In this document: positions 41,279 through 48,574 of the stretch, in pieces | Numbering within the stretch: position 1 is the first letter of the stretch | How the letters are laid out: each line of letters starts with the position of its first letter | Source: Nitrospinaceae bacterium | GTDB lineage: Bacteria > Nitrospinota > Nitrospinia > Nitrospinales > Nitrospinaceae | Length of the DNA: 52,034 bases | Assembly: GCA_029261395.1 (NCBI GenBank) | Contig: JAJDBJ010000012.1 | Span: 1-52,034, forward strand | Direction: 5' to 3' | Made by a program: the position numbers and the translations under genes | Notes under the pieces: generated by a model | The model's input: only the letters and a program-made list of their open reading frames with translations | Database searches by the model: none | Told to the model about the DNA's origin: nothing

Positions 41279-42232
41279 TCATACATGATTCCTAAGCATG
41301 AGTTCCTTGGGATGCGGGTTTAGATATACCTGATCCAGCAAATACTCAATGTTGTGTTTTTTTACTTGGTGGCGGATTAAAGTTACAGGAACTATAAGCG
41401 GGAGCAATTCTTTTCTATAATCTTCTAGGGTGGTCAGAAGGTCTTCTTTTTCGCCTTTCGTCAAAACCTTTTTAAGGAATCCCATCATGTGAAGCAAAAC
41501 ATCGGTATTTTTTTTGGGTGTGGATTTGTAAGTCAATGCTTCCATAAACAATCGACTATACTCGGCTTTAATTTCTTTCGGTTTTAATGATTTGGCATTC
41601 GCCACTAACTTCCCTAGAGCGGTATAATGGTTTCTACTGTGAGCCAAAAGTAAAAACTTATGTCTTGTGTGAAAAGCAACTAAAGCTCCTTTAGAGAAAT
41701 CCTTGCTGAATAGTTTTTGAAGCCTGTTAAAAGAAAAGACCCTGACAATAAAGTTGTCACGAATTTTTGCGTCGTTTAATCTTCCCTCGTCTTCAATGGG
41801 CACCAAAGGAAAGGTCTTGATAAACGCATTGGCGAACATACCGGCCCCATGTCTTGCCTTACTACGGTCAGTCTCTGAGAAAACAGGTACTCTGGCTATG
41901 CCGCATGATGGTGACTTGCTTTTAAAAATATATCCACAAAGATCCTCATGAGTCAGCTTGTTAATTCGACCCCTTAGATAATGGTTCATCCTTTCAGTCC
42001 AATCAGTTTTGGTTGTCTTGCTTATCATTTTTGGTGCCTCCAGGGTTCCGTAAAGTGCGACGGTTTCTCTCGGAACTCCCATTCCCACTTCCATCTCTGG
42101 GCACACAGGAACATACTCGAAGTAATTGCCTAATATTTCACGAACATACCGATCCTGCTTGTGGTCTCCATTCCATCGGACTTTTTCACCTACCAGGCAA
42201 CTGCTTACCCCGATTTTGATGATATTTTTCAT
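41279..42232 (-). CDS. DUF523-DUF1722 fusion protein (YbgA-like)
   Basis: A 317-residue protein. Residues 1 to about 150 are DUF523 (start G-V-S-S-C-L-V-G, then V-C-P-E-M-E-V-G-M-G-V-P-R-E and S-P-S-C-G). Residues about 185-310 are DUF1722 (F-H-T-R-H-K-F-L-L-L-A-H-S). The conserved cysteines suggest an Fe-S cluster or metal site. YbgA-like genes often lie beside photolyase and CarH/LitR-type regulators, and recent work in other bacteria links the family to tRNA or DNA-damage functions only loosely. Here it follows the CarH-like gene by 41 bases and is probably in the same operon. Confidence 0.88.
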   Translation of the reverse strand: MKNIIKIGVSSCLVGEKVRWNGDHKQDRYVREILGNYFEYVPVCPEMEVGMGVPRETVALYGTLEAPKMISKTTKTDWTERMNHYLRGRINKLTHEDLCGYIFKSKSPSCGIARVPVFSETDRSKARHGAGMFANAFIKTFPLVPIEDEGRLNDAKIRDNFIVRVFSFNRLQKLFSKDFSKGALVAFHTRHKFLLLAHSRNHYTALGKLVANAKSLKPKEIKAEYSRLFMEALTYKSTPKKNTDVLLHMMGFLKKVLTKGEKEDLLTTLEDYRKELLPLIVPVTLIRHQVKKHNIEYLLDQVYLNPHPKELMLRNHV

Positions 42233-42273: not shown

Positions 42274-43170
42274 TCATTCTAAATTATTAAATACTTCGTC
42301 CAGATCGGACAGAGTCTTGATAACTTTAATATTTTTATTATCCATATGAGGTTCCCACTGACTCATCCCCTGCCCGCCAACCAAAACAGGGCAAAGAGGT
42401 AAAATTCGATTGGATATCTCAGCAAAAAAAACTCTGCCTTTGTTTTCGCCAACGGGAGAAGTCAAAGAAAGAATAACCATATCCGGATTTGTGTTGGTGC
42501 AAAAATGAACCAAACTTTCTAGAGGGAGGTTGGCTCCCAAAAGAGTGGTTTGGCAACCTAAAGTGGCACAATGGTAAGCTACCATTTGTGCACCAATTTC
42601 ATGAAGCTCCCAGGGAGGGCAGGCAATAATCACTGTAGGGCCGTTTCGCGTTCCCATCATGTTCATTACGGCAAACAGTTTCTGTTTTACTTGGGTAGTT
42701 ACATAATGTTCTACGGAAATATCTAGTTTCCCATCAAACCATAACTCCCCGACTCGAATTTGCAGGGGAACCAACACCCTTTTAAAAACTTCCTCAAAAG
42801 GCAACAGCGCCACCATTTCTCTCATCCTTTTCTCGAAAGCCCACTGATCAAGAGGCATTAGAGAATGTTCCAGATCTTTAATCAGGGGATCTGTCTTGTG
42901 GACCTCATCCCGAGCTTCCTCTGCTCCGTCACTATTCATTCGAGATAGAATTTCGTCTTTCCCCAGCGAAGCCAGCTCTCCTATGGATTGGCCCAGTTCA
43001 ATTTCCTTGACCAGGTACTGTAATATTTTTAGATCCTCCTCGGTATAGAGACGATACCGGTTAGGCCCCCTTTCAGGGGAAACCAGCCGGTAGCGTTTTT
43101 CCCAGACACGCAGAACCTCCCTCGATAAACCTGTCATTTTCGCTATCTGTTTGATTCGGTAAGTTTTCAT
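42274..43170 (-). CDS. carH: CarH/LitR-type B12-dependent MerR photoreceptor regulator
   Basis: A 298-residue regulator. The N-terminal MerR helix-turn-helix (M-T-G-L-S-R-E-V-L-R-V-W-E-K-R-Y) is followed by a helical and a Rossmann B12-binding domain. W144-x9-E154-H155 is the adenosylcobalamin light-sensing motif, and H190 in W-E-L-H-E-I-G is the lower cobalt ligand. All four positions are offset by a constant 13 from Thermus CarH W131, E141, H142 and H177. Phe145 replaces the His132 that forms the light-state bis-His adduct in Thermus. Such proteins repress in the dark as tetramers and release DNA in light. The ATG at 43170 is preferred; an upstream ATG at 43197 would lie inside the promoter. 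It is divergent from the FGE-fold operon. Confidence 0.9.
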   Translation of the reverse strand: MKTYRIKQIAKMTGLSREVLRVWEKRYRLVSPERGPNRYRLYTEEDLKILQYLVKEIELGQSIGELASLGKDEILSRMNSDGAEEARDEVHKTDPLIKDLEHSLMPLDQWAFEKRMREMVALLPFEEVFKRVLVPLQIRVGELWFDGKLDISVEHYVTTQVKQKLFAVMNMMGTRNGPTVIIACPPWELHEIGAQMVAYHCATLGCQTTLLGANLPLESLVHFCTNTNPDMVILSLTSPVGENKGRVFFAEISNRILPLCPVLVGGQGMSQWEPHMDNKNIKVIKTLSDLDEVFNNLE

Positions 43171-43177
43171 TGGCCTT

Positions 43178-43207
43178 ATTTTAATTGGAATATACAATGT
43201 TTGTCAA
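43178..43207 (-). promoter_or_regulatory. Candidate promoter of the carH-like gene
   Basis: On the minus strand TTGACA (43207-43202) and TAAAAT (43183-43178) are 18 bases apart. The start codon at 43170 would leave almost no leader, so either the mRNA is nearly leaderless or the true -10 is elsewhere. The -35 lies in the left arm of the inverted repeat. Confidence 0.4.
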
Positions 43208-43236
43208 ATCTTTTTAAAAAAACTATTGACAAACAT
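43197..43236. promoter_or_regulatory. Perfect 11-bp inverted repeat: probable CarH operator
   Basis: ATGTTTGTCAA (43197-43207) and TTGACAAACAT (43226-43236) are perfect inverse copies separated by 18 AT-rich bases. Each arm contains the TTGACA of one of the two divergent promoters, so a protein bound here would block both. MerR-family CarH proteins bind such sites over -35 elements. Confidence 0.65.
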
Positions 43237-43254
43237 TAGTCATATTCATATAAC
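43226..43254 (+). promoter_or_regulatory. Strong sigma-70 promoter of the FGE-fold/cytochrome operon
   Basis: TTGACA (43226-43231) and TATAAC (43249-43254) are spaced 17 bases apart, close to ideal. Transcription would start near 43261, about 44 bases before the ATG at 43305. The -35 is part of the right arm of the inverted repeat. Confidence 0.7.
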
Positions 43255-43304
43255 TATAAACGAAACACTAAACAAACCTTATAAAACCATATTGGAGAAA
43301 TGTA

Positions 43305-44354
43305 ATGAAGACGAAGAAAAGGCTTAAATTCGCAATGGTTGCCTTGGCATTGGCCGTTACCGCGGGCTCACCACATGCTTGGGCGGAAATTCAAGTTCCC
43401 GAAGATATGGTCTTGGTTCCAGGCGGATCATTTCTTATGGGAGTCGACAAAGAAACAAATGCCAATACAAAAAAAATGTCTCAAATAAAACAACTCAAAT
43501 ACGCCGTTTCCCGCGAAGCCTTCCATGATGAAGGTCCCGCCCACAACATCAGTTTAGATACTTTCTATTTGGACAAGTATGAAGTGTCCAATCAGCAGTA
43601 CGGGGAATTCATTAAGGCGATGGGACACCCCGCCCCGGCCTACTGGGATGATCACCTGCGTAATAAACCGAATCAGCCGGTGAGTGGTGTGAACTGGCAC
43701 GACGCCACTGCTTACTGCGGCTGGGCTAATAAGCGTCTGCCGACAGAAGCCGAATGGGAAAAAGCCGCACGGGGTCCGGAAGGATACAAGTATCCGTGGG
43801 GCAACGAACTTAACTCAAGCAATGCAAACTTTGCTCGAAATCAGGAGTTCACCGCTAACGTGGACGCTTATCCCGGCGGCAAAAGCCCGTATGGGGCCTA
43901 CAACATGGCCGGAAACGTTTTTGAATGGGTTTCTGATTGGTATGACCCCAACTACTACAAGAGTAGGAAGGATATGACGAACCCGACCGGACCGAAGGAA
44001 GGGGCTTTCCTGAGTAATACCGGCACTTACGTGGACCGTATTGCCGTCGGTAAGAAACGAGTCATCCGCGGCGGTTCCTGGTATGCCCCTGCAGAAAGTA
44101 TAACGAACACTCATCGCTTCTGGAACGATCCCATGAACAACAGTTACGGCGTGGGGCTTGGATTTCGTTGCGCTCGATCGGCGGAAAGTGCATCCACGGA
44201 TCAGGCACGTACTTTCTACATGGAAGCACTGATTCATATGGGTGCAGAAAAATATCCGCAGGCAATGAAGTCCATTGAAAATGCATTGAAACAGGACGCA
44301 ACCAATCCGGAATATCTGCAACTGAAAAAAATGATTCAGAAGCAGGTCCAGTAA
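43305..44354 (+). CDS. Secreted FGE-fold (SUMF1-like) protein, first copy
   Basis: A 349-residue protein with a signal peptide (cleavage near A-W-A, residue 27). The formylglycine-generating-enzyme/SUMF1 fold is clear: V-P-G-G-S-F-L-M-G, then Y-E-V-S-N-x-Q-Y, R-L-P-T-E-A-E-W-E-K-A-A-R-G, Y-N-M-A-G-N-V-F-E-W-V and I-R-G-G-S-W...G-F-R-C. The catalytic copper-binding Cys pair of true FGE (human C336/C341) has no counterpart; only the late Cys289 remains. So it is probably not an FGE, and may act like NirV-type proteins beside nitrite reductases. A TPR-like unit occupies residues 300-345. About 60% similar by eye to the third copy. Confidence 0.85.
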   Translation: MKTKKRLKFAMVALALAVTAGSPHAWAEIQVPEDMVLVPGGSFLMGVDKETNANTKKMSQIKQLKYAVSREAFHDEGPAHNISLDTFYLDKYEVSNQQYGEFIKAMGHPAPAYWDDHLRNKPNQPVSGVNWHDATAYCGWANKRLPTEAEWEKAARGPEGYKYPWGNELNSSNANFARNQEFTANVDAYPGGKSPYGAYNMAGNVFEWVSDWYDPNYYKSRKDMTNPTGPKEGAFLSNTGTYVDRIAVGKKRVIRGGSWYAPAESITNTHRFWNDPMNNSYGVGLGFRCARSAESASTDQARTFYMEALIHMGAEKYPQAMKSIENALKQDATNPEYLQLKKMIQKQVQ

Positions 44355-44455: not shown

Positions 44456-44833
44456 ATGGATACAAATCATAAGAAAGACAAAAAATATTTAGCGGTCTTC
44501 ATACTGGCTCTCCTATTGTTCCCTTTGATTTTTCCGAACGGTAGTTGGTGTGAGGAAACGATGGAACAACGCGTGATGAACAACACTTCCCACGCACGGT
44601 TGGCGGTAGAACAGGCTTGGGAAACTTACCATCATGCGGCATTGGGCGGAACCCTCTCATCTCCCATGTCACAAACAGAACTCGAAATGAATCTCCATTT
44701 GTCACGAGCTCTCCTTGCATCTGCTTATGAAGCTGAAGATAGAGGTGATATGAAAACGGCCCATAAGCTGATCAAACAAAGTATGCAAATCACAGACAAA
44801 GTCATAGTTGAAAGCCAGGAGCCTAAAAAATGA
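44456..44833 (+). CDS. Small secreted helical protein
   Basis: A 125-residue protein with an N-terminal signal or anchor helix (about 12-32). The mature part is helical and charged, with H-A-R-L-A-V-E-Q-A-W and a late A-H-K-L-I-K-Q-S-M, resembling one or two TPR-like hairpins. I do not recognise a family. Its stop overlaps the start of the next FGE-fold gene (ATGA), so the two are translated together and may interact. Confidence 0.72.
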   Translation: MDTNHKKDKKYLAVFILALLLFPLIFPNGSWCEETMEQRVMNNTSHARLAVEQAWETYHHAALGGTLSSPMSQTELEMNLHLSRALLASAYEAEDRGDMKTAHKLIKQSMQITDKVIVESQEPKK

Positions 44834-45636
44834 AATCTGCATTAAAAGTAATAAATTTGATATTTATGGCATTTTTGATTTTGCCGTCATTCGAACTCTC
44901 TTCCGTGGTTTATGCGGATTCTTTAAAGAAGAAAAGCAGGGACCCGGTTCAAATGACAACTATTCCAGCGGGAGAATTCCTCATGGGCAGCAAACAAGCG
45001 GAAGGCAGACTTGATGAACGGCCTCAGAGAAAAATATATTTGGATTCCTATGCAATCGATATTAATGAAGTGACCAACGAACGCTATTTAAATTTTATTC
45101 ATTCGACAGGGCGAAAAGAACCACCGAATCCGTATGGAGATCGATTGCTGTCGGAAGAAACCGGCATTGGTTCTTTGCCGGTGGTTCAAGTGACCTGGTA
45201 TGACGCGGTGGATTATTGCCGTTGGGCAGGAAAACGCCTGCCTACCGAGGCGGAGTGGGAAAAAGCAGCACGCGGAGCCCACGGGGCATTATTCCCATGG
45301 GGCGCACAGTCACCTCAAACAAAGCCTGTCAATTTTGAAAAGAACTGGGATGGAACGAAAACCCTTTGGCCGGTTGGATCAAAAACTGAGACCTCTTCAT
45401 CTTATGGGATACACGACATGGCCGGAAATGTTCGCGAATGGGTGCAGGACTGGTATGCCCCAGATTATTACGCGAACGGGCCTACTAAAAATCCACAAGG
45501 GCCAAAAAATGGAATTTTAAAGGTAATCAAAGGCGGATCGTGGCACAGCTTTAAAGCTGATGTGAGATCGGCCGCAAGAGGCAAGGGTGGGTTCGCACTC
45601 AAGACAGATGGTATTGGTTTTCGTTGCGTCAGGTAG
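44830..45636 (+). CDS. Secreted FGE-fold (SUMF1-like) protein, second, shorter copy
   Basis: A 268-residue protein with a signal peptide (about residues 1-29). The fold motifs are intact: I-P-A-G-E-F-L-M-G, I-N-E-V-T-N-E-R-Y, R-L-P-T-E-A-E-W-E-K-A-A-R-G, D-M-A-G-N-V-R-E-W-V and K-G-G-S-W...G-F-R-C. As in its neighbours, the FGE catalytic Cys pair is missing: the position of C341 is Ser in R-S-A-A-R. It lacks the C-terminal TPR extension of the other two and is clearly more diverged. Coupled to the upstream gene by ATGA. Confidence 0.85.
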   Translation: MKSALKVINLIFMAFLILPSFELSSVVYADSLKKKSRDPVQMTTIPAGEFLMGSKQAEGRLDERPQRKIYLDSYAIDINEVTNERYLNFIHSTGRKEPPNPYGDRLLSEETGIGSLPVVQVTWYDAVDYCRWAGKRLPTEAEWEKAARGAHGALFPWGAQSPQTKPVNFEKNWDGTKTLWPVGSKTETSSSYGIHDMAGNVREWVQDWYAPDYYANGPTKNPQGPKNGILKVIKGGSWHSFKADVRSAARGKGGFALKTDGIGFRCVR

Positions 45637-45675: not shown

Positions 45676-46773
45676 ATGAGGTGGCATTTAAATAAATCTT
45701 TTATCAAAGTCGTAAACATATTTTTTATGGTCGTCTTTCTGGCGATGCCTCTTTCACCAATTGAGGCAACAGAAAGCCTGGCCCCCGAAAACATGGCTCT
45801 GATCAATCCTGGTGGTTTTATGCGAGGAATTGATAAAGAAAAACCGGTAAAGGACAATAATAATAAGTCGCCGTCCCAAAAATTTAAATATGCGGTATCC
45901 CAGAAAGCCTTCGCAGACGAGGGTCCGGCCGGAATGATATATCTAAGCGCCTATTATATAGACAAGTATGAGGTTTCAAATGCCCAGTACACCGAGTTCA
46001 TCAAAGCCACCGATTATCCCGCCCCCGCTTATTGGGATCACCATCATTTAAATCAGCCCAACCAACCCGTAACCGGGGTGAACTGGTACGATTCCAATGC
46101 TTATTGTCACTGGGCGAACAAAAGATTGCCAACGGAAGCGGAATGGGAAAAGGCTGCCCGTGGACCGGCTGGTTCAATCTATCCATGGGGGAATGAACTG
46201 GATATTACCAAAGCAAATTTTGCAAGAGGGACGAGAAAAGTTCAGAAGAACCAAAAGTACCCCGCTACGGTCAATGTGGATTCCCACCCAGAAGGAAAAA
46301 GTTATTACGGAGTCTACAACATGGCAGGAAATGTTTTTGAGTGGGTTCAGGACTGGTATGACCCGAATTATTACACGACTTCAAAAGAGGTAAGAAACCC
46401 ACAGGGTCCTTACCAGGGCATTAAGCTTGGAACCACAGGTACCTACATCGATAAGTTGGCCTCTGGAAAAAAGAAAGTTATCCGCGGGGGATCATGGTTC
46501 GCCCCGGCCCACAGCATCACCACCACTCACCGTTTCTGGAATGATCCTATGAATAACTCTTACGGAGTTGGATTGGGATTTCGATGTGCTCGCAGTTTGG
46601 AAAGTGATCCTGAAATGCAATCCCGTTCATTTTATATGAACGCCCTTATTCAAATGGGAGTTGAAAAACATAAGGAAGCTTTAATATCTATCAACAAAGC
46701 TTTGAGATCCAGTCCCAAAAATAAAGAATATCAGAGTCTGAAATTGATGATTGAAGGACAAAGCAACCCCTAG
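45676..46773 (+). CDS. Secreted FGE-fold (SUMF1-like) protein, third copy
   Basis: A 365-residue protein with a signal peptide (about 1-33). It closely follows the first copy along its whole length, including P-A-P-A-Y-W-D, R-L-P-T-E-A-E-W-E-K-A-A-R-G, I-R-G-G-S-W-F-A-P, the N-D-P-M-N-N-S-Y-G-V-G-L-G-F-R-C end and the C-terminal TPR-like unit. The FGE Cys pair is again absent. The base composition is more AT-rich than copy one, so the duplication is not very recent. RBS AGGAGG lies just before the ATG. Confidence 0.85.
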   Translation: MRWHLNKSFIKVVNIFFMVVFLAMPLSPIEATESLAPENMALINPGGFMRGIDKEKPVKDNNNKSPSQKFKYAVSQKAFADEGPAGMIYLSAYYIDKYEVSNAQYTEFIKATDYPAPAYWDHHHLNQPNQPVTGVNWYDSNAYCHWANKRLPTEAEWEKAARGPAGSIYPWGNELDITKANFARGTRKVQKNQKYPATVNVDSHPEGKSYYGVYNMAGNVFEWVQDWYDPNYYTTSKEVRNPQGPYQGIKLGTTGTYIDKLASGKKKVIRGGSWFAPAHSITTTHRFWNDPMNNSYGVGLGFRCARSLESDPEMQSRSFYMNALIQMGVEKHKEALISINKALRSSPKNKEYQSLKLMIEGQSNP

Positions 46774-46815: not shown

Positions 46816-47173
46816 ATGAAAAAGTTTATTTTAAGTTCACTTGTTCTGATTTTGAATTTATTCATAATTTCCTGTTCTGTTGAACCTCGAAAAAACGGTT
46901 CCCGAGGAATACAAAGCGGGACATAAGCATTATCAAAGGATATGCGCCAATTGCCATGGACCGGATGCCATGGGGGGTAACAGGGCACCGAAATTGATTC
47001 AAAAAATTTACTCTTCGGATGCTTATTCAAACGAAATGTTTACCCAAATCATTCTAAATGGATCCAATTCGGGATCCATGCCTTCTCTAAAAGACAAATT
47101 ATCTGACAAAGAGATAGAGCAGGTCATTAAATACATAAGGTATTCACAAAGAGTGTCGGACTTAACATCCTAA
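46816..47173 (+). pseudogene. Lipoprotein cytochrome c interrupted by a +1 shift at an A6 run
   Basis: The ATG at 46816 starts a lipoprotein signal (M-K-K-F-I-L-S-S-L, lipobox I-I-S-C). That frame stops at 46923. The cytochrome domain with C-A-N-C-H near the start and M-P-S-L-K as a likely distal-ligand region lies in the +1 frame from 46880 to 47173. Removing one A from the six-base run at 46890-46895 joins signal and domain into one normal 118-residue lipoprotein cytochrome c. The cause may be a sequencing error, a real mutation, or slippage at the A run. Confidence 0.75.
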
Positions 47174-47197: not shown

Positions 47198-47665
47198 ATG
47201 TTCACTGTAAATTTATTAAAATTTAAAATTTTATTGATGTCATTGACTTTGTGCTTTTTATTCCTGCCCGCCTTAGAAGCGGCTTGGGCTAAAGAGTGTC
47301 CCCAGGATAGGCAGACTCAAAAGGCGCCCCCCACCTATCTAAGTAAAAAAAATCCTCTGAGGGAGGAACCGCGGTTTATTAAAAAAGGTAAAGTTCTTTC
47401 CCATATTAAAGCCAAGCCGATTGCCTGTAAGCAGTGCCATGGAATGAGTGGAGAAGGAAATGGAGCGATGGCGTTTAATATGAATCCCAAGCCAAGGAAC
47501 TTTAAATGTAAGGCCACAATGTCTGAAATCCCAGATGGTCAGTTGTTTTGGATAATTAAAAACGGCTCCAAGGGAACCCCCATGCCTTCTTACAAACACC
47601 TCTCGGATGAAAAGATATGGCAATTGATTCACTACATTCGATCTTTACCAAAATCGATTTCATAA
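47198..47665 (+). CDS. Secreted monohaem cytochrome c
   Basis: A 155-residue protein with a signal peptide (about 1-31, cleavage near A-W-A). One haem c site C-K-Q-C-H is seen near residue 77, with G-T-P-M-P-S-Y as the probable Met ligand loop near residue 127, as in cytochrome c class I/C551-type domains. An N-terminal extension of about 45 residues is rich in Lys and Pro. It is the last gene of the operon and probably carries electrons in the periplasm. RBS GGGAG. Confidence 0.85.
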   Translation: MFTVNLLKFKILLMSLTLCFLFLPALEAAWAKECPQDRQTQKAPPTYLSKKNPLREEPRFIKKGKVLSHIKAKPIACKQCHGMSGEGNGAMAFNMNPKPRNFKCKATMSEIPDGQLFWIIKNGSKGTPMPSYKHLSDEKIWQLIHYIRSLPKSIS

Positions 47666-47739: not shown

Positions 47740-48574
47740 AGAAAACCGTTGTCCGCTCCCGTGTCCCTTATGGCAGGTTACAGCCCTCTCCGACCTGCCA
47801 GAGGGTTGGACCGATGAGCAGGAAGGCGGAACTTACCGTTTAACGAAACGCCAGGACCAAGCCCTGTTCGGTTACAACGTCGGTCCCCATTCCTGGAAAC
47901 AATTTCCTTTCCCCCCGCAACAAAAACTCTGGACAGCAAAACGCAACGATCAAGGGTTTGAAATCCATCCTGAGGATGAGAAGCCGCCTCGATATGCGTT
48001 TTTGGGAGTACGGTCCTGCGAACTGCACGCGATCGCCATTCAAGATAAGGTGTTTCTGGGAGGTGATTATGTGGATCCTGTTTACAAGGCGCGCCGCGAA
48101 AATGCGCTGATTATTGCTGTCAATTGCGGGCTGGCTCTTACCCGGGCTTATATGGATTTCGACGCCGCACAATGGTTCCCGGTTGAAACGGTGCCAGCAC
48201 GTCATTCCTCAGATTGTATCAGCGGTGACATTCTTCTGGGTTTACAAAAACCCGACCAATGTTCATCATTTGGTACTGCCTGCACCCCGGATCAACCTCT
48301 GGGTGCGCCGATGGTTTCGTCCGAAGGCGCCTGCGAAATTCTCGTGCTGGACCCGTTGTATGTGGCCAACGAAGGACGCTTTGTAGCCATCCTTCCAGAA
48401 AAGGATTCTGATAAGGCGCAAGCGATTATCCAGAAACATTTTTCAGAGTCACCGCCCAGGATGATAAGATATGTTAAAGAGGGAACTCAACCTGTAGTCA
48501 CATTGGAAAACTTCCTGAGCTCCCATCGAGTGCTGGATTTGCCCAGCGGAGAACAACTGCCGCGCATCTGCTAA
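47740..48574 (+). pseudogene. Fused fossil of hydrogenase genes: hydB'-hypD'-hypE'
   Basis: One open frame joins pieces of three unrelated proteins. About 47786-48130 (L-S-D-L-P-E-G-W-T-D-E-Q-E, later G-V-R-S-C-E-L-H-A-I-A-I-Q-D) matches the N-terminal half of the group 3b hydrogenase/sulfhydrogenase beta subunit, ending before its CFC Fe-S motif. About 48131-48330 (A-Y-M-D-F-D-A-A, C-T-P-D-Q-P-L-G, M-V-S-S-E-G-A-C) matches the HypD C-terminus. From about 48332 (C-E-I-L-V-L-D-P-L-Y-V-A-N-E-G) to G-E-Q-L-P-R-I-C at the stop it matches the HypE C-terminus. The two joints are internal deletions. The first bases (47740-47790) appear frameshifted, and no proper start is seen. Confidence 0.8.

Follow-up and report, generated by a model that had tools for sequence, protein, structure and literature searches.

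CarH proteins (class I LitR) are defined by the joint presence of a Wx9EH motif and a cobalamin-binding motif (PMC8156234, PMC9304148). In the protein of Thermus thermophilus (TtCarH), roles have been described for W131, E141, H142 and H177 (PMC10442372, PMC11796333), and His132, which follows the Trp, is the upper ligand in the light state (PMC10442372). A His at this position is found in many CarH proteins, not all (PMC9304148), and is treated here as a common trait of the members, not as a defining motif. Characterized CarH operators are built from 11-bp direct repeats (nnnnTnnACAn) arranged in tandem and accompanied by pseudo-repeats; they usually overlie the -35 box (PMC9304148) and are not palindromes (PMC9304148, PMC8156234); functional operators with one direct repeat and flanking pseudo-repeats have also been reported (PMC9304148). 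The class II LitR of Pseudomonas lacks the cobalamin Rossmann domain and has a LOV partner (PMC9758184). RudS, which takes the near-UV target 4-thiouridine off tRNA, is often encoded within light-responsive operons, among them the phrB-LitR-RudS operons with a class II LitR (PMC11417400).

Light also bears on nitrite oxidation, and its inhibitory effect has been invoked for sites of nitrite build-up in the upper ocean; our search of the open-access literature found no paper describing, for Nitrospinota, either a sensor of light or an operon that responds to it. In Nitrotoga, light stops nitrite oxidation, and photo-oxidation of cytochrome c has been suggested as the cause (PMC8415719). Here we analyze a 52,034-nt stretch of Nitrospinaceae DNA (the window), in which a CarH-type gene, carH1, is divergent from an operon for proteins of the formylglycine-generating enzyme (FGE) fold and c-type cytochromes (Table 1). 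We propose, with a probability of roughly 70%, that the locus holds a CarH circuit of Nitrospinales nitrite oxidizers in which both divergent units are repressed in the dark and released in the light.

Table 1. Features of the carH1 locus, in window coordinates.
Feature	Coordinates	Strand	Description
rudS	41279..42232	-	TudS/DUF523 fused to DUF1722; 317 aa; co-directional, 41 nt downstream of carH; PF04463 5.5e-40, PF08349 9.7e-40
carH1	42274..43170	-	MerR-type DNA-binding domain, B12-binding four-helix bundle, B12-binding Rossmann domain; 298 aa, ATG start
carH-rudS promoter	43178..43207	-	TTGACA-18-TAAAAT; 11/12 consensus positions; best sigma70 match in the intergenic region
Proposed composite CarH operator	43190..43243		about 54 bp; per direction one direct repeat (TnnACA) and pseudo-repeats, A/T-rich center shared; from 11-bp tiling and conservation profile
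Left arm AATGTTTGTCAA	43196..43207	-	contains carH promoter -35; 94% identity across 7 orthologous regions
Right arm TTGACAAACATT	43226..43237	+	contains FGE/cytochrome promoter -35; 82% identity, -35 hexamer 100%
FGE/cytochrome operon promoter	43226..43254	+	TTGACA-17-TATAAC
Conserved element CACTAAACAAACCTTA	43266..43281	+	holds TAAACA; downstream of -10, just after FGE transcription start; 83% identity
FGE1	43305..44354	+	exported SUMF1/FGE-fold protein; PF03781 5.6e-51; PDB relatives FGE, PvdO, PorK/GldK
hyp125	44456..44833	+	small exported helical protein, invariant Y58-H59-H60; operon marker; AF2 model
FGE2	44830..45636	+	FGE-fold protein; PF03781 2.7e-58
FGE3	45676..46773	+	FGE-fold protein; PF03781 8.2e-48
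Cytochrome c lipoprotein (CBB3-III type)	46816..47173	+	PF13442 1.6e-14 for downstream frame; lipoprotein-like N-terminus in another frame
Exported cytochrome c	47198..47665	+	PF00034 1.1e-10; PDB relative 6h5l_B 3.3e-16

CarH1 is a new member of the CarH family

The CarH1 protein matches the Pfam families MerR_1 (PF13411; 8.6e-13), B12-binding_2 (5.8e-8) and B12-binding (4.5e-8), finds TtCarH (5c8d) in a phmmer comparison at 2e-28, and carries an RVWEKRY recognition-helix motif in its N-terminal MerR winged-helix domain. Numbered from the ATG, residues W144, E154, H155 and H190 correspond to Thermus W131, E141, H142 and H177; the constant offset of 13 that the sequence-only reading had assigned to W144-x9-E154-H155 and H190 is exact in the alignment. 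The gene starts at the ATG at 43170 and not at the TTG at 43197, which would add nine residues. The first three of these residues form the Wx9EH motif, and the cobalamin motif is whole, reading ELHEIG-x41-SLT-x27-GG with His190 inside it, in agreement with the pattern D/ExHx2G/P-x41-SxT/V-x22-27-GG. All four residues are invariant among 15 aligned Nitrospinales CarH-type proteins, at identities down to 21%. A Foldseek search of the PDB with an AF2 model (pLDDT 84.9) returned TtCarH for all top matches (E about 1e-18), with a TM-score to target of about 0.75-0.82 for the CBD. By every sequence criterion that defines the family, CarH1 is thus a CarH (class I LitR), and a new member of a family already known; by analogy with characterized CarH proteins, it would bind AdoCbl, oligomerize and be released by light.

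Inspection of the residue after the key Trp revealed one departure from the Thermus protein. CarH1 proteins of the window clade have Phe (Phe145) in the place of His132, whereas a sister clade that carries the same operon (loci L045-L047) has kept the His; this replacement could change the light step in CarH1. A second CarH-type paralogue, CarH2, is encoded elsewhere in the genome from which the window comes (L048, contig C83, 9032-9973) and at loci L049-L055, and has Glu or Gln after the Trp. CarH2 shares with CarH1 the MerR domain, the Wx9EH and B12 motifs and, in L129 and L130, an adjoining rudS, but it forms a separate clade, is only about 25% identical to CarH1, and does not stand beside an FGE/cytochrome operon in the loci seen.

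The locus is conserved and linked to light-related genes

The divergent arrangement of carH1 and the FGE/cytochrome genes is kept in nine Nitrospinales genomes, drawn from three of the order's families and several genera, and carH1 was found only together with this operon. Its small exported protein, hyp125, for which no significant PDB fold match was found, occurs in 12 of the 77 genomes of the phylum, all in this order, and is absent from the other 375 of 387 genomes surveyed. Among the 77, hyp125 is present in 9/9 genomes with carH1 and in 3/68 without it (Fisher 1.4e-9, a p value that ignores shared ancestry). On the other side of carH1, rudS adjoins the regulator gene in most orthologous loci; with DUF523/TudS and DUF1722 joined in one ORF, its product is a predicted tRNA 4-thiouridine desulfidase of the same family as the described RudS (PMC11417400).

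Other genes in or near the operon in relatives encode a photolyase (L041, L046), a BLUF-PsiE protein (L040, L041) and pyrimidine-dimer glycosylase family proteins (L040, L044), together with TPR, DUF4399 and DoxX proteins. In genome G005, a photolyase remnant, lipocalin-like and cyclopropane-fatty-acid-synthase-like (UfaM-like) genes and a second carH all lie within about 30 kb. Across genomes, photolyase is present in 6 of the 12 that have the operon, as marked by hyp125, versus 2/52 others (p 3e-4), and rudS in 12/12 versus 17/52 (p 2e-5), both p values ignoring shared ancestry. The genome of the window itself encodes no photolyase, and its BLUF gene is unlinked to the carH locus. Two side observations concern related gene sets: contig 16 of G005 carries a second, partial FGE1-hyp125-FGE2 copy (L120, 7579-9929) whose promoter region has TATAAACAAACATTA and an inverted TATAGTTTGTTTA; and in G056 a photolyase gene without carH1 stands amid several cytochrome c genes related to those of the window (L128, 3255-8476), a separate hint that such cytochromes have a role in a light response.

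As to cofactor supply, the genome of the window encodes a PduO-type cobalamin adenosyltransferase, the kind that makes AdoCbl, and cultured Nitrospinae, which are auxotrophic for B12, possess genes to take it up and salvage it (PMC8026999); therefore, the circuit would respond to B12 supply as well. This auxotrophy, taken with the fact that apo-TtCarH is a monomer without repression (PMC9304148), lends some weight to an alternative in which CarH1 is mainly a sensor of coenzyme-B12 supply that keeps its targets repressed as long as AdoCbl is abundant and lets go of them once B12 runs short, light being a minor or slow signal given the Phe at the His132 position. The H132A variant of TtCarH did remain mostly tetrameric in the light in one study, although the same paper cites an earlier report of disassembly (PMC10442372). 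However, the genes that surround the locus in relatives are those of light and UV responses (photolyase, BLUF, RudS and pyrimidine-dimer glycosylase), not of B12 uptake or B12-dependent enzymes; the sister clade retains Trp-His with the same operon; and AdoCbl is itself photolabile. We therefore regard a mainly B12-sensing role as unlikely.

A back-to-back CarH operator appears to span two divergent promoters

The arms of a perfect inverted repeat with an 18-bp spacer lie between the two gene sets. The sequence-only reading had given this repeat as 11 bp (43197-43207, 43226-43236); the repeat is real but extends to 12 bp, and when the 134-bp intergenic region was dinucleotide-shuffled 2000 times, a perfect inverted repeat of at least 12 bp arose in only two cases. 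The placement of each divergent -35 within an arm also holds, as both arms contain a TTGACA hexamer. On the carH side, the putative -10 ends about 8 bp before the ATG, so that the transcript probably has no leader or almost none.

A single symmetric site over both -35 boxes, as first supposed, does not sit well with known CarH operators, which are direct repeats; what stands is a conserved footprint over both boxes. Tiled at 11 bp, the proposed window operator shows a single full TnnACA repeat in either direction, located in the -35 of that side, together with pseudo-repeats, and no 11-bp pair. The inverted repeat is thus best read, from its sequence, as two back-to-back CarH arrays whose upstream pseudo-repeats share an A/T-rich center. 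Comparison with seven orthologous regions shows 77% conservation of the A/T-rich spacer and 90% of the left flank, against 33-51% for most neighboring stretches, and a TnnACA follows the -35 by 41-43 bp in all nine carH1-FGE/cytochrome loci. Promoter conservation could account for the hexamers taken by themselves, but not for the left flank or for the element just after the FGE start; this element is likely an extra CarH half-site.

Relatives supply the paired repeats that the window lacks. TTGACA-N5-TAAACA occurs in L041, L042 and L043, and L040 has TTGACA-N5-TGAACA. In a pool of 13 promoters of the FGE operon, TnnACA pairs spaced by exactly 11 bp number 11 versus 0.21 expected in shuffles, although these promoters are related to one another and the pairs are not 11 independent events; a smaller excess is seen at 12 bp, with four pairs, and the remaining spacings from 7 to 19 bp have no more than one pair each and no excess. 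Two operons without a neighboring carH1 (L117 in G035 and L119 in G063) are preceded by DNA that is quite unlike the others and has TTAACA/TTGACA repeats every 11 bp or so; the repeats match TnnACA exactly in L117, and one of the three in L119 is degenerate. G035 has only the other CarH type and no carH1, and to judge by their repeats these upstream regions look like independent use of a CarH-type operator. The region in L117 (5878-6740) is striking for the length of its operator-like array, in which TTAACA-type repeats recur no fewer than six times, 10-11 bp apart. A further variant is seen in L044 (3177-4143, genome G025), in which about 20 codons are absent from the start of carH along with the left operator arm, so that only the FGE-side arm remains; this is either a natural deletion or an assembly fault.

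These data bear on a second alternative, in which CarH1 represses carH-rudS only and the FGE/cytochrome operon answers to another regulator, the right arm being just a strong -35. Conservation of a -35 hexamer is expected at any promoter, and the flank of the right arm is conserved to only 44% in a distant group. Against this stand the high conservation of the element within the FGE transcribed region, the restriction of carH1 to genomes with the FGE/cytochrome operon, the TnnACA repeats at FGE promoters that have no carH beside them (L117, L119), and the recurrence of the right-arm sequence in L118; together they make control of carH-rudS alone improbable. That CarH1 is a CarA-like, B12-independent repressor answering to a signal other than light is more improbable still, for although CarA illustrates that B12 dependence can be lost among CarH relatives (PMC9304148), CarA lacks the Trp of Wx9EH, whereas in CarH1 the whole motif is intact and invariant.

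Elsewhere in the genome, operator-like sequence is sparse. In the genome as a whole, the exact 13-mer TTGACAAACATTA occurs once, and one-mismatch matches lie at only four other sites, the left arm among them; those outside the locus, which are no more frequent than in controls, lie within two ORFs and upstream of a small ferritin-like ORF. A triple-repeat operator pattern has no match elsewhere in this genome, and a relaxed 17-mer search of it returned control level only. Because no other convincing operator copy was found there, the CarH1 regulon may be local. In relatives, no TnnACA pairs were seen upstream of unlinked photolyase genes.

Discussion

Taken with the fold, the CarH motifs, the footprint over both -35 boxes, the nine-genome synteny and the linkage to light-related genes support the proposal of the sequence-only reading that one repressor governs both the carH unit and the FGE/cytochrome operon. 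In the dark, CarH oligomers loaded with AdoCbl would occupy the TnnACA repeats that cover the two divergent -35 boxes, and probably the element beyond the FGE start as well, and would block RNA polymerase at both units, carH-rudS and the FGE/cytochrome operon. Light in the green, blue or near-UV range would cut the Co-C bond, CarH would leave the DNA, and both units would turn on. RudS would then strip near-UV-sensitive 4-thiouridine from tRNA, and the periplasmic FGE-like proteins and c-type cytochromes might, more speculatively, renew or protect a light-damaged electron-transfer system. An operon that renews light-damaged cytochromes would, as a speculation, fit the photo-oxidation proposal made for Nitrotoga (PMC8415719).

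The locus resembles the CarH systems of Thermus thermophilus, Bacillus megaterium and Myxococcus in the domain order, Wx9EH motif, B12 motif with H190 and fold of its regulator and in TnnACA repeats over the -35. It differs in that no carotenoid genes lie nearby, the targets being rudS and an FGE-like/cytochrome c operon; in its back-to-back operator over two promoters, which in the window has a single intact repeat each way; and in the Phe that replaces His132. With the phrB-LitR-RudS operons of Pseudomonas it shares a regulator that adjoins rudS and, in relatives, a linked photolyase, but the B12 domain of CarH1 is complete. While CarH is already known, the cytochrome c/FGE-fold target operon appears to be new; in the open-access literature we found no description of a CarH over such an operon with rudS in nitrite oxidizers. 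The circuit would add electron-transfer proteins to the carotenoid and DNA-repair genes under CarH control, in an organism that depends on imported B12, and the locus offers a testable light response with a named candidate photoreceptor, operator and target genes. The Phe-versus-His difference after the key Trp is moreover a natural test of how CarH releases DNA. A more specific scheme is possible but doubtful: that marine nitrite oxidizers use the periplasmic operon, gated by light and by B12, to replace or repair respiratory components destroyed by light, and that a CarH variant without the light-ligand His uses a different end state of the photoswitch.

As regards the operon products, FGE1-3 share the fold family of formylglycine-generating enzyme, EgtB, PvdO and PorK (PF03781), but, unlike formylglycine-generating enzyme, they lack the FGE active site, are periplasmic and are encoded beside cytochrome c genes. 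A true FGE carries a catalytic Cys pair after its GGS(W/F) anchor. We rejected a catalytic role of this kind for FGE1-3: none of 8 orthologues has a Cys between the GGSW motif (GGSWYAPAES...) and the final GFRC, and because no Cys follows GGSW, these proteins are not formylglycine generators. The first cytochrome c gene is frameshifted in this assembly at an A6 run near 46890-46895 and intact in relatives, which reflects either an assembly error or a recent loss. Farther downstream, an ORF at 48002-48574 resembles HypD in its middle, where the match is confined to the C-terminal part of that family (PF01924, positions 274-347), between unrelated flanks; from its sequence, this ORF looks like a fusion or a decayed remnant of hydrogenase-maturation genes.
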